Of a stretch of DNA of 40,287 nucleotides, positions 7,660 through 37,328 are shown piece after piece. Position 1 is the first letter of the stretch; each line of letters opens with the position of its first letter. Source of the DNA: Alteromonadaceae bacterium (GTDB taxonomy: Bacteria > Pseudomonadota > Gammaproteobacteria > Enterobacterales > Alteromonadaceae). The notes beneath the pieces are model-generated. The model saw only the letters and a list, made by a program, of their open reading frames with translations, ran no database searches and was not told where the DNA came from. The stretch is taken from contig WGGB01000052.1 in the NCBI GenBank assembly GCA_015491935.1, positions 1 through 40,287 on the forward strand, written 5' to 3'. The position numbers and the translations under genes are program-made.

Positions 7660-7698
7660 AATCATTCCTGCTGATTTATATTAGTATATAAGTATAAG

Positions 7699-28800: not shown

Positions 28801-29277
28801 TTGAGTAAAATAAAACCTAAAGTATTAGATCGTATAGATTTAGCTATTTTAAATACCTTACAACAAAATGCTCGTATATCTAATGTTGAGTTAGCACAGC
28901 AGGTTAATTTAAGTGCAAGTCCCTGTTTAGAACGTGTAAAGCGATTAGAAGAAGATGGGTATATTAAAGGTTATGGCGCTTTTTTAAATGCGAGTATGCT
29001 TAATTATGCTATGTCAGCTTTTATTCAAGTTACACTCGATCGTACCACTGCCGATGTTTTTGAAAATTTTAAACAAGGTATAGTAAAGATCAAAGAAGTT
29101 TCAGAATGTCATTTAGTTGCGGGCGGTTATGATTATTTGCTAAAAATTCGCTTTAGAGATATTTCTTGTTATCGTGACGTATTAGAAAAAGTGGTTTCAT
29201 TACCCGCTGTAGCTCAAACGCATACCTACATGGTAACAGAGCAGATAAAACAAGATTCTGGTGTGCCTATCTACTAA
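28801..29277 (+). CDS. Lrp/AsnC-family transcriptional regulator
   Basis: Feast/famine regulator of 158 residues. An N-terminal HTH (about 8-55) has LDRIDLAILNTLQQNARISN and SASPCLERVKRLEEDGYI. A C-terminal RAM (AsnC ligand-binding) domain follows, with ECHLVAGGYDYLLKIRFRD. It resembles BkdR/PutR-type local regulators rather than global Lrp, but its target cannot be named. The start is TTG at 28801: an in-frame stop lies 21 bases upstream and no ATG occurs near the start. It lies 56 bp after the c-di-GMP enzyme gene and is followed by the HDOD gene within 41 bp. Confidence 0.9.
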   Translation: MSKIKPKVLDRIDLAILNTLQQNARISNVELAQQVNLSASPCLERVKRLEEDGYIKGYGAFLNASMLNYAMSAFIQVTLDRTTADVFENFKQGIVKIKEVSECHLVAGGYDYLLKIRFRDISCYRDVLEKVVSLPAVAQTHTYMVTEQIKQDSGVPIY

Positions 29278-29317
29278 ATTTTCTGAGCGGTTAAAAATAA
29301 AAGGGAACAATTTATTT

Positions 29318-30154
29318 ATGAATGCTTATGATTATGCCGTGCAAGCTAATGGTTCTTTTGCCTTGCCTGATGCTTGTTTTAAAGTGAAAGAATTAATGGC
29401 AAACGAATCGTCTACAGTAGAAGATTTTGCTAACGTTATTAGTCTTGATCCATCAATGACCTCACGATTATTACAAATAGCGAATAGTGCTATTTATAAC
29501 TTTACTGGCGAAATAAGTACCATTTCTCGTGCCATTACTATTATTGGTACGGCGGCTATATACAATATGATGTTAATTGATGTCGCGGCAACTGCATTTA
29601 AGCATTTTTCTAATGATATTGTCGACTTAAAACGCTTTTGGTATTTAAGTGTTTACAGTGCGTTAGCGGCGAAAAATTTAGCCATTAAAGCGAATATTCC
29701 TGATATAGAACGATTATTTGTTGCCGGTTTGCTAGAAAATTTTGGTGAGTTGTTAGTGGCAAAAATAAATCCTGAAATAGCAAAAAAAGTTGATAAATAT
29801 CATGGTGAATATTTACCTTGGCAAGTACAAAAACACTTACTCGGTTTTACCTATACCGACATTTCTGCCGAATTATTAAAAATTTGGCAACTTCCAGAAC
29901 GGGTTATTCTACCTATTCGTCATTTTAATGAAGCTAAATCGATTCAAATTAATAAAGATGTTCACATCTTATATTTAGCATCTCGCTTAGCATTAATTGA
30001 TCGCTTTCCTGAGCGTTTTAGTTATGACGCTTTAATTGATGAAGCTTTTTTTAAAAGGCTTGTTATCACTGAGCAAGATCTTCAACAGGCACAAAAGTTT
30101 GCACAAGATGAAACGCATAATATCCTTACCATCATAAATGCCGGTATGTTTTAA
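29318..30154 (+). CDS. HDOD-domain signalling protein (paralogue A)
   Basis: Cytoplasmic protein of 278 residues made of one HDOD domain, a relative of HD phosphohydrolases often found as regulatory output modules. The N-terminal ISLDPSMTSRLLQIANSAIY and the GLLENFGELLVAK segment define it. In this segment the HD metal dyad is lost (EN in place of HD), so it is almost certainly non-enzymatic. It is about 280 residues long and co-linear with the gene at 36486-37328, with matching segments throughout (for example both begin MNA-x-x-YA and contain LPWQ and GFT). ATG at 29318 is used because the paralogue aligns there, although an open frame extends upstream into the Lrp gene. Confidence 0.88.
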   Translation: MNAYDYAVQANGSFALPDACFKVKELMANESSTVEDFANVISLDPSMTSRLLQIANSAIYNFTGEISTISRAITIIGTAAIYNMMLIDVAATAFKHFSNDIVDLKRFWYLSVYSALAAKNLAIKANIPDIERLFVAGLLENFGELLVAKINPEIAKKVDKYHGEYLPWQVQKHLLGFTYTDISAELLKIWQLPERVILPIRHFNEAKSIQINKDVHILYLASRLALIDRFPERFSYDALIDEAFFKRLVITEQDLQQAQKFAQDETHNILTIINAGMF

Positions 30155-32734: not shown

Positions 32735-33598
32735 TTATAAATCATCTCTAATACGCATAAAGCTAGCAAAACGTGGTACACCATTTTTGGTTTTGCCAAA
32801 ATATTTATACGTTATTTGGCTGCCTATCGCGGGGGGATTTTTGCGTTGTTCATTAGTAAATCCACTGCCAATTTTAAAAATAGTGCCATCGCTGGTTTTT
32901 ACTCTGAGTGCACCAAGCATATGACGAAATTTCCCTTTGCCTTGCAGATGCGCTAGCACAATAGCTTCAGCATCTTGATATTTTTTCAGTTTCATTAAGT
33001 GCTTAACTCGACCTACTTTATAATGAGCATTTTGGTTATGTAGCATTAGCCCTTCACCATTTTGTTGAATAACCTCGTCTAAATGAGCAAATAATGCTTT
33101 GCTCGAGGTGAACTTTTCTTGTTTTATCATGCGTAAATAAGGTGAATTTACTTGTGCTACTAAAGTATGCATTTGTTTAATACGTGTTGAAAAGTCGTCT
33201 TTAGAATTAGGTAAATCAAACATCATAAAATGTACTTTTCGCCAGTTAGTATCAAGGGCATTTTGTTGCCTGACGATACCCGAAACTTGTTCAAATTTAC
33301 CTCGGGCTATCCATAATTCACCATCAATGGCTTGTTTGGGCCAATTTTTTGTAAACCAAGTGGGTGTATTTATCAGTAAACCTTGGCGAGTTAATAATTG
33401 TTGTCCATTCCAATAACCGCGGACACCATCTAACTTTTCGCTTACCCAGTATTGTGAAATATCATCAACAGGGCGATAGACAATACCTTTTTGAATGGCA
33501 GGCTTGTGAGCCTTTTTTATTAATGATTGCGCGACTAATTGTTCAGTGCTTAGAATATAACTGGCTATAAAAAATAGAATAATAGAAATCTTTTTCAT
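32735..33598 (-). CDS. ligE: Periplasmic ATP-dependent DNA ligase (LigE type)
   Basis: Minimal ATP-dependent DNA ligase of 287 residues with an N-terminal signal peptide (residues 1 to about 23), so it acts outside the cytoplasm. Motif I EKLDGVRGYW holds the adenylated lysine K55. Further nucleotidyltransferase motifs are visible as DGELW (motif III), the EGLMLHN segment (motif IV) and MKLKKYQDAEAIV (motif V), followed by an OB-fold domain. No extra DNA-binding domain is present, as expected for LigE. LigE proteins have been linked to DNA uptake and extracellular-DNA structure in other bacteria. AAGGACG lies upstream of the ATG. It is divergent (93 bp) from the basic exported protein gene. 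Confidence 0.92.
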   Translation of the reverse strand: MKKISIILFFIASYILSTEQLVAQSLIKKAHKPAIQKGIVYRPVDDISQYWVSEKLDGVRGYWNGQQLLTRQGLLINTPTWFTKNWPKQAIDGELWIARGKFEQVSGIVRQQNALDTNWRKVHFMMFDLPNSKDDFSTRIKQMHTLVAQVNSPYLRMIKQEKFTSSKALFAHLDEVIQQNGEGLMLHNQNAHYKVGRVKHLMKLKKYQDAEAIVLAHLQGKGKFRHMLGALRVKTSDGTIFKIGSGFTNEQRKNPPAIGSQITYKYFGKTKNGVPRFASFMRIRDDL

Positions 33599-33691
33599 AG
33601 TAACGTCCTTGTTTTAAATGGGGTATGTTGTTGTGATATTAATTGTAGACTATTATTAGTATTAGTTTTTAATTAAGAGGATTTATCAAGG

Positions 33692-34222
33692 ATGAAAGTA
33701 AAATTAAGCATTGTTATCTATATTGTTATTTGTATTGCTATATTTTTTTCTAACACGGCCATCGCGGGGAAAAAACGTTGTAAACCACTGTTAGATAAAT
33801 TGCATAATATTCAAGCCCAACAACGACAAGGTTATTCAGCTAAAAAAGGAATGAGTTTACAAACGAGAGCAGATAAGGTGCGTGATAAATGGTGGCAATG
33901 TGAAAATACGTCTATTTACTCACAAAGTAAAAAGCATAAAAAAAAGTTGAAGAAAAAGCAAAAGGCAAAGCATACATCAAGTATTTCAATTAAGGCTTCG
34001 AATGCTGTTAGCGGTAATAGTCGTAAGGTTATTAAACCTTTTGCAACGTCACAAGCCATTGTGATAAAAAGTCGCTTTAAAGGTAAAAAGCAACAAGCTT
34101 GGTTGAATTATTATCAACAACCCAAAAAATGCCAGCGTGCGAAAACAACAAAAATATTTGCTTTTTGTGTTGAAGATAAGTCAAAGCAGCAAGAAGCATT
34201 TATTCGTCAATATCAAAAGTAG
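33692..34222 (+). CDS. Lysine-rich exported hypothetical protein
   Basis: Predicted exported protein of 176 residues with a signal peptide at about 1-25 (ending TAIAG). The mature protein is strongly basic, with lysine clusters such as KKHKKKLKKKQKAK and many K/R throughout, and four cysteines (KRCKPLL, WQCEN, KKCQRA, FAFCVED). The N-terminal part (CKPLLDKLHNIQAQQRQGYS, then a DKWWQCE segment) looks like a compact helical module. No family is recognised with confidence. Its charge and divergent placement with ligE suggest binding of nucleic acid or another anionic polymer in the envelope; this is inference. Confidence 0.75.
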   Translation: MKVKLSIVIYIVICIAIFFSNTAIAGKKRCKPLLDKLHNIQAQQRQGYSAKKGMSLQTRADKVRDKWWQCENTSIYSQSKKHKKKLKKKQKAKHTSSISIKASNAVSGNSRKVIKPFATSQAIVIKSRFKGKKQQAWLNYYQQPKKCQRAKTTKIFAFCVEDKSKQQEAFIRQYQK

Positions 34223-36485: not shown

Positions 36486-37328
36486 ATGAATGCTAGAGAA
36501 TATGCAGAAGAAGCAAGTGATATATTTGTACTGTCAGATTCTTTTATTCGTATTAAAGAACTACTAGAAGATGATAGCGCCACTATTGACGATATTAGTC
36601 AGGTTATTTTATTAGATCCCGCGTTAACGGCTGCTATTTTAAAACTCTCTAATAGTTCTTTTTTTAATTATTCGGGGAAAATTGATACCATATCAAAGGC
36701 GATGTTAGTACTAGGGATCACGGAAGTTTATAATTTAGTTATCGCTTACTTTACGGGAAAAGCCTTTACTAGGTTAGAAGCGGATAGCGATTTTTTAGAT
36801 ACTTTTTGGGCTCGTACTATTGATTGTGCTTTGCTTGTTAAATATTTAGCGGGTTTTACTCGGATAAAAAAAGCAGAACGCTTATTTGTATTGGGTTTAT
36901 TGCATAATTTGGGGGAATTGGTTGTACAACAATTAACACCTGAAAAAATAGTACAGTGTCAAAGTAACGGTATAGATGAATTACCATGGCAAAAACAACA
37001 GCAAGTATTAGGCTTTACTTTTGGTGAGTGTTCTGCCGAATTATTACGTTTTTGGCGGTTACCTTATTGTTTAATTGAACCAGTTGGCTCGCAAGATCAA
37101 GATGATTTTGAATATTTAAGTGATGAAAGTAAATTACTTTATATTGCTAAACGAGCGATGTTGGCAAATAGCCTTTTTCAAGAAAACCATATTGAACAAA
37201 ATATTGAACAACTAGTTTCACAAGCACAGCTTGATGAGTTGGGTTTATCTTATCAGCAAATTATAGACGCCTATGATTTTTTAAACACAGAGCGTGATTC
37301 AATAAGTCGTTTATTAAAACATAAATAA
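36486..37328 (+). CDS. HDOD-domain signalling protein (paralogue B)
   Basis: Cytoplasmic protein of 280 residues with one HDOD domain, paralogous to the protein at 29318-30154. It shows ILLDPALTAAILKLSNSSFF near the start and GLLHNLGELVVQQL in the domain core. The histidine of the HD dyad is kept but the aspartate is replaced (HN), so metal-dependent hydrolysis is unlikely. The C-terminal 80 residues are helical and differ from paralogue A. It lies between the DUF2797 gene and the convergent korB gene (about 36 bp) without a clear terminator. Confidence 0.87.
   Translation: MNAREYAEEASDIFVLSDSFIRIKELLEDDSATIDDISQVILLDPALTAAILKLSNSSFFNYSGKIDTISKAMLVLGITEVYNLVIAYFTGKAFTRLEADSDFLDTFWARTIDCALLVKYLAGFTRIKKAERLFVLGLLHNLGELVVQQLTPEKIVQCQSNGIDELPWQKQQQVLGFTFGECSAELLRFWRLPYCLIEPVGSQDQDDFEYLSDESKLLYIAKRAMLANSLFQENHIEQNIEQLVSQAQLDELGLSYQQIIDAYDFLNTERDSISRLLKHK

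Follow-up and report, generated by a model that had tools for sequence, protein, structure and literature searches.

The stretch of DNA analyzed here, 40,287 nucleotides (nt) of contig WGGB01000052.1 from an Alteromonadaceae bacterium (the window, in what follows), encodes a probably exported minimal ATP-dependent DNA ligase, LigE (gene ligE, 32735..33598, − strand), and, divergent from it, a lysine-rich protein of 176 residues that is likewise predicted to be exported (33692..34222, + strand), which will be called the partner. The open reading frames (ORFs) of the window leave exactly 93 base pairs (bp) between the two genes (33599..33691), the divergent spacing that an earlier note on this DNA had given. 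Comparison with relatives revealed that the pair recurs through 16 genera of a clade that we take to be marine, and that in the leaders of both genes a hairpin located at the ribosome site often displays a GGA in its loop. We infer that CsrA may bind both messengers, that the partner may bind DNA and that it may work together with LigE; the whole proposal, i.e., a LigE-linked pair under shared CsrA/Rsm control in which LigE acts on extracytoplasmic DNA that the partner holds, has in our estimation an even chance of being right. The earlier note had guessed at shared regulation and at a small module that binds and seals DNA. Taken as a whole, its interpretation is partly supported: the regulation guess now stands on firmer ground because the ribosome sites of both genes show similar hairpins with a GGA in the loop, which lends it independent support, and the DNA-binding module is a hypothesis that is developed below.

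The divergent pair and its distribution

The naming of the ligase as LigE was confirmed by NCBIfam profile NF006592 (380.5 bits, cut-off 200) and by the Pfam domains PF01068 (DNA_ligase_A_M) and PF14743 (DNA_ligase_OB_2), at 34.4 and 104.5 bits, both above their cut-offs. The closest PDB entry was 4d05 (E=1.3e-92), and 6gdr and 8u6x also matched. The protein (287 residues, cysteine-free) comprises the two core domains only, with no appended domains, and carries the motifs KLDG at 55, EGLM at 182 and KLKK at 203, which we presume to have their usual ligase roles; the KxDG catalytic lysine motif is intact. Its N-terminus, MKKISIILFFIASYILSTEQLVAQ, reads by eye as a signal peptide, with a putative cleavage at MKKISIILFFIASYILSTEQLVA/Q. 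By its sequence, the window ligase is an ordinary Lig E, with nick sealing outside the cytoplasm as its predicted role, and it shares with the Lig E enzymes of known structure (4d05 from Psychromonas, 6gdr, 8u6x) the overall sequence, the catalytic motifs, the OB domain and the N-terminal leader. The partner, identified by its composition and by conserved alignment columns, proved as basic as had been described: it contains 34 lysines, many of them in the stretch KKHKKKLKKKQKAKH, has an isoelectric point of 10.4 and carries a net charge of about +33 once the first 25 residues are removed. Its hydrophobic N-terminus was read by eye as a signal peptide; of its cysteines (14, 30, 70, 147 and 159) the first lies within this presumed peptide, leaving four in the mature part, in line with the four cysteines that had been noted.

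The recurrence of the pair was analyzed in 196 genomes of the same GTDB family, with LigE counted above its profile cut-off. LigE was found in 120 of these genomes and a match to the partner profile in 76, four of which (G020, G022, G045 and G083) lack ligE. In 57 genomes the match lay within 2 kb of ligE and, with both strands searched, it was divergent in 57 out of 57. Inspection of the divergent side brought the pair to 60 of the 120 LigE genomes, and because of this recurrence the arrangement is beyond chance. A second sample, of 247 genomes across the order, contained 114 with LigE, and 100 of those did not belong to the family; there, five genomes outside the family had a partner-profile match, none of them near LigE, with a profile that may miss diverged forms. 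On this sample a wide distribution of the pair was rejected, and the pair was met in one family only. On a LigE tree the pair needs 5 changes, at least 4 of them forced by well-supported branches, versus 40 for shuffled labels, a pattern in keeping with descent in one clade together with some losses or misplaced rows.

Within this clade the linked partner was present in 65 of 68 ligE-positive and in 0 of 4 ligE-negative genomes (Fisher p 3.4e-5, a value that ignores kinship, the ligE losses falling in two genera only). Among the family genomes without ligE, 12 of 76 have the DUF3581 gene that flanks the pair, and two (G115 and G012) keep the surrounding block, both without the partner; a further ligE-less genome (G032) was excluded from the co-loss count since a contig end cuts its block. 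In genus g52, with 15 genomes, ligE was found in 12 and the linked partner in 10 of these 12, compared with 0 of the 3 ligE-less genomes; G429 and G431 (the latter 78% complete) were counted as ligE-less without a linked gene, with the block uninspected there. Within the clade sampled, the linked type of partner was seen only with ligE. The lack of co-occurrence that would have refuted the earlier note was not observed inside one clade; the pair was not met, though, in the LigE genomes sampled outside the family, and most of the gene neighbourhood has been passed on together.

This block consists of a transporter and a methyltransferase on one side of the pair, and of DUF3581, a GIY-YIG-like ORF and DUF2797 on the other, the transporter and GIY-YIG names being our assumption. 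In the window, the outer neighbours recognized by Pfam and by conservation are an S-adenosylmethionine methyltransferase (PF10672; 31834..32721, + strand), which lies outside the proposed module, and the DUF3581 gene (PF12119; 34238..34954, − strand). All 60 loci show at least one block gene. Such a setting allows a different explanation, namely that an ancestral gene order holds ligE next to an unrelated basic envelope protein, both belonging to a broad CsrA regulon with no joint work; we regard it as possible, if doubtful. Several observations pull in its direction and away from a functional pair. The methyltransferase was present in 50 of the 60 loci and DUF3581 in 56 of the 60 (in fetched stretches, many of them short), and conservation around the pair extends to five further genes of the block. 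Because these flanking genes travel with the pair, its arrangement is largely inherited gene order, and adjacency was dropped as the sole proof of a functional link, since the outer neighbours are conserved too. The restriction to one family points the same way. Moreover, three clade genomes have ligE and no partner (G041, G138 and G424, the first two with the block in place), and diverged partner relatives are held by the ligE-less genomes G020, G022, G045, G083 and G429; the one in G429 groups with the unlinked relatives of its genus (G087, G193), apart from the linked ones. Against mere inheritance stands the lack of a linked partner in all four ligE-less clade genomes. Two genomes (G040 and G057) keep the pair although the stretches fetched on the DUF3581 side, of 3.5 and 2.1 kb, respectively, show no DUF3581.

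GGA hairpins in the two leaders

In both start regions a short stem is often found, whose loop contains either AAGGA or a CAAGG that continues into the ATG. A leader was scored as hairpin-bearing when a stem of at least 4 pairs surrounded a GGA that precedes the start codon by 2 to 17 nt, GGA-less starts being scored as lacking. The main counts use the nearest start, and the controls are the first ATGs of ORFs of at least 150 residues from the same loci, some of which are wrong starts. By this rule, hairpins were observed in 41/56 leaders of ligE with partner and in 29/59 partner leaders versus 19/342 control starts; unscorable leaders amounted to 4/60 for ligE with partner, 1/60 for the partner, 1/60 for ligE without partner and 2/40 outside the family. 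Both leaders of a pair bore a hairpin in 19 of 55 pairs, and at least one did so in 49. With a second scoring, which favours starts having a GGA, the corresponding counts were 39/54 for ligE with partner, 33/54 for the partner, 14/46 for ligE without partner and 20/155 for the controls. The other genes of the block showed the hairpin in 5 of the 31 starts that have a GGA, with 87 further starts GGA-less; that an uncommon hairpin is common to both leaders, and mostly missing from their neighbours, argues against a pair brought together by inherited order alone.

The stems covary, so that the third pair of the partner leaders is T-A, A-T, C-G or G-C. When the 3′ arms of the leaders, scored in the second way, were swapped between genera in 2000 trials, the partner count fell from the observed 33/54 to a mean of 7.6 (highest 17), and the ligE count from 39/54 to a mean of 18.8 (highest 29), so that the observed counts were reached in 0 of 2000. 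Together with the covariation, these swaps show that the hairpins have been kept by compensating changes across genera. In five later-fetched genomes of genus g52 with the pair, a genus already present in the first sample, the hairpin was found in 5/5 ligE and 4/5 partner leaders; a sixth genome (G424) lacks the partner, and its ligE start is without a GGA.

The leaders of the window itself are modest examples. That of ligE, AAC-AAGGAC-GTT (33602..33613, − strand), holds ACAAGGACGT and would form a 3-bp hairpin with the Shine-Dalgarno GGA in its loop, just before the start codon. In the partner leader, TAAG-AGGA-TTTA (33674..33685, + strand) would form four pairs, one of them G-U, on the Shine-Dalgarno GAGGA, and a second GGA hairpin of 3 bp, TCA-AGGA-TGA (33686..33695, + strand), recognized by eye, overlaps the start codon and resembles, again by eye, the main hairpin of the relatives. 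A scan of the window detected a stem of at least 3 pairs at 4 of 32 ORF starts, two of which are those of ligE and the partner.

Some partnerless ligE genes in genera g28, g36 and g50 carry GGA hairpins as well, e.g., ggca-AGGA-tgcc running into the ATG in g28. Because such leaders exist, the hairpin control may be older than the pair. In addition, an ORF at position 7665 of the window (− strand), which has a signal-like start and which we take to be rhodanese-like, carries a 5-pair GGA hairpin at its start and is possibly another CsrA target.

CsrA as candidate regulator

The CsrA consensus obtained by systematic evolution of ligands by exponential enrichment (SELEX) is RUACARGGAUGU, with the GGA in a hairpin loop; most of the ligands had a six-nt loop with AC/GU as its closing pairs, and in most of them no more than 4 pairs were contiguous (PMC7652899). 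The same source places CsrA sites on the Shine-Dalgarno sequence or the start codon in glgC and pgaA, and ties CsrA to biofilm (PMC7652899). We compared the leaders, including ACAAGGACGT of the window ligE, with this consensus. Its core, ACARGGANGT, was found in 23/52 leaders of ligE with partner, compared with 1/44 of ligE without partner and 0/116 controls, and the shorter CARGGA in 37/52 leaders of ligE with partner and 29/50 partner leaders versus 16/116 controls. The genome has one csrA match (G000:C6:1239-1394, 88.2 bits). The leader motif thus resembles the published consensus, making CsrA a candidate regulator of both messengers. As in the CsrA/RsmA-repressed mRNAs glgC, pgaA and psl, a GGA would be presented in a short loop over the Shine-Dalgarno sequence or start codon, and these known targets are biofilm-related, a trait that we set beside the pair as a further likeness (PMC7652899); in contrast to them, two divergent genes here carry similar predicted sites, in a scan that covered the start region only.

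The divergent promoters were also inspected. CTAYACT-like −10 elements were found in 31 of 57 intergenic regions of the pair on the ligE strand and in 16 of 57 on the partner strand (shuffle means 1.3 and 0.8), and in the window ATTGTAGACTAT (33642..33653) possibly contains, as judged by eye, the overlapping −10 elements of both promoters. They resemble those of stationary-phase sigma-S promoters, with sigma-70 also conceivable; being sigma-S-like, they would fit CsrA control. In the proposed mechanism, CsrA (RsmA) would bind both leader hairpins and block translation in active growth, and relief of the Csr/Rsm system, in stationary phase or biofilm, would lead to LigE and partner being made together and exported.

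A number of results speak against this part of the proposal. Hairpins of at least 4 pairs also occur at partnerless ligE, in 17/59 leaders within the family and 8/38 outside it, and CARGGA was found in 21/44 ligE leaders without partner, so that neither is unique to the pair. The core ACARGGANGT was detected in only 3/50 partner leaders. Conserved clade-wide, the hairpin is weak in the genome of the window, where the 3-bp ligE stem (−0.4 kcal/mol) is no more stable than its shuffled versions; of the 8 leaders folded, 5 were either no more stable than the shuffle mean or within one standard deviation of it. The stems are 3 bp in both leaders of L002, whereas the named Colwellia loci (L003-L008) have stems of 2 bp at ligE and of 4-5 at the partner; in many relatives, the ligE stems reach 4-9 bp. 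Several stems elsewhere are longer than in most SELEX ligands, and a search with RF00018 detected no CsrB-type RNA in the genome, which is 91.6% complete.

These points feed an alternative in which the hairpins are real and do not serve CsrA: a Shine-Dalgarno sequence presented in a loop could set translation efficiency, sense temperature or serve another RNA-binding protein. We judge this unlikely. It would account for the stems of 5-9 bp in several leaders, compared with at most 4 pairs in most SELEX ligands (PMC7652899), for the scarcity of the exact core in partner leaders and for the missing CsrB match. What it leaves aside is that the CsrA pattern is just this, a GGA kept in a short loop next to an inner C-G pair, that CARGGA is enriched in both leaders of the pair over the controls (with partnerless ligE in between), and that csrA is present in the genome.

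Competence control was analyzed in the same 57 intergenic regions. CRP-S sites were found in 1 of 57 (shuffle mean 0.9) and CRP-N sites likewise in 1 of 57, neither above chance, and competence control was rejected. The uptake phenotype that the earlier note had envisaged thus gained no support. A DNA-uptake module, with transforming DNA that enters the periplasm as the substrate of LigE and the basic protein, appears to us improbable: a periplasmic polycation could hold incoming DNA, but the CRP-S count is at the level of chance and CsrA control would indicate sessile or stationary life.

The partner protein and a possible role with LigE

The preferred reading, a co-controlled pair in which the partner holds DNA for LigE, requires the partner to interact with DNA. 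The protein has an N-domain with C30 and C70, a lysine-rich linker and a C-domain with C147 and C159. No Pfam or NCBIfam family matched it, and an alignment of its relatives (A2) gave no PDB match at E≤1; members of A2 yielded scattered weak Pfam and NCBIfam lines that were judged to be noise, so that no named family was assigned. The genome collection supplied eight relatives, seven Colwellia records and one Alteromonadaceae bin. In the alignment the N-domain has two cysteines 40 residues apart (pattern KKRC...IQAQQR.GYS...DKWWQC), both invariant in the 25 rows of A2, the linker varies in length and the C-domain contributes two more cysteines. A short form consisting of the N-domain, and still basic, is found in genera g30 (7/7 genomes) and g52 (5/5 linked cases of the first sample). 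An AlphaFold model built with 9 rows was poor (mean predicted local distance difference test score 55), and places helices at 31-45 and 56-96, surrounding the first two paired cysteines.

Partner relatives unlinked to ligE are more distant and mostly less basic. The charge per residue had a median of 0.18 for linked (n=60) and 0.065 for unlinked proteins (n=10), with overlapping ranges (0.07-0.34 versus −0.01-0.13), after a crude removal of 22 residues and with 10 hand-picked from 20 distinct unlinked relatives. In a tree built from 60 linked and 21 unlinked proteins, those linked to ligE cluster (3 changes versus 18.9 in shuffles); deep forks are poorly supported, and a single clade is unproven. 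Two composite proteins, one example of each, match one domain of the partner profile. In L146 (1662-3015, + strand, genus g18) the partner C-domain is followed by a NERD nuclease-related domain (PF08378), a hint towards nucleic acids; in L161 (924-1650, − strand, a distant family) the partner N-domain follows DUF4124 (PF13511), so that this two-cysteine domain may occur more widely as a module. Neither is ligE-linked as far as seen. Mostly less basic relatives were also observed elsewhere, mostly in pair-bearing genomes (L138, L139, L140, L143, L144, L166 and L235). In genus g45 (L147, i.e., G136:C17, and G175:C26), the contig that carries ligE also has partner-profile matches at a distance of about 8 kb and, in G175, of about 94 kb as well; the nearer match consists of two stretches within one ORF.

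Once exported, the partner would be polycationic, with cysteine bridges in one or two small domains; it would bind DNA outside the cytoplasm and hold or bridge it, so that LigE, which has no DNA-binding appendages, could seal this DNA at sea-water salt. This role is suggested by the basicity of the partner, the NERD hint, the absence of an appendage in LigE and a report that ties Neisseria gonorrhoeae Lig E to biofilm formation and proposes the joining of extracellular DNA (PMC10799422). For Psychromonas Lig E, which is without the lysine-rich latch of the Chlorella virus enzyme, the sensitivity to salt was described as surprising in view of a marine periplasm (PMC4220977). A bolder version holds that the lysine-rich protein is a latch in trans: an exported polycation, co-controlled through paired CsrA hairpins, would restore DNA holding at sea-water salt to a Lig E possibly of viral origin and without the lysine-rich loop by which its viral cousins bind DNA, giving a two-protein extracellular sealing of matrix DNA. 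We think this a long shot. The likeness is that of a lysine-rich element accompanying a minimal ATP-dependent ligase (PMC4220977), whereas the element is here a separate protein, and functional equivalence is speculation. The enzymology is less favourable to any helper, as Lig E alone was active on several DNA substrates, its missing loops being explained by protease avoidance (PMC4220977), and was reported active without a binding partner (PMC8455567), which also suits the inherited-neighbours explanation.

A published Lig E survey describes no common synteny around the gene, leaving partners to await cell experiments; directly adjacent genes were kept within Vibrio and within Neisseria, and the taxa covered were Vibrio, Neisseria, Haemophilus and Campylobacter (PMC8455567). 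No mention of Colwellia or of an alteromonad was found in that source, and the regulation of Lig E is listed as open in another (PMC12221376). Among the matches listed for the open-licence literature, nothing concerned the ligE-partner pair or its control. Unlike the Lig E genes surveyed, the one described here shows a leader hairpin and is accompanied, across the 16 genera of a clade, by a divergent partner gene, so that a clade-wide candidate partner and a specific candidate regulator are now available for Lig E. If CsrA control and partner-aided ligation were true, mending of DNA outside the cytoplasm would be programmed and coupled to the change between a free-living and an attached state.

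Finally, two HDOD-domain proteins (PF08668) are encoded on either side of the block, on the same strand (29261-30154 and 36486-37328, both +), and look like paralogs.
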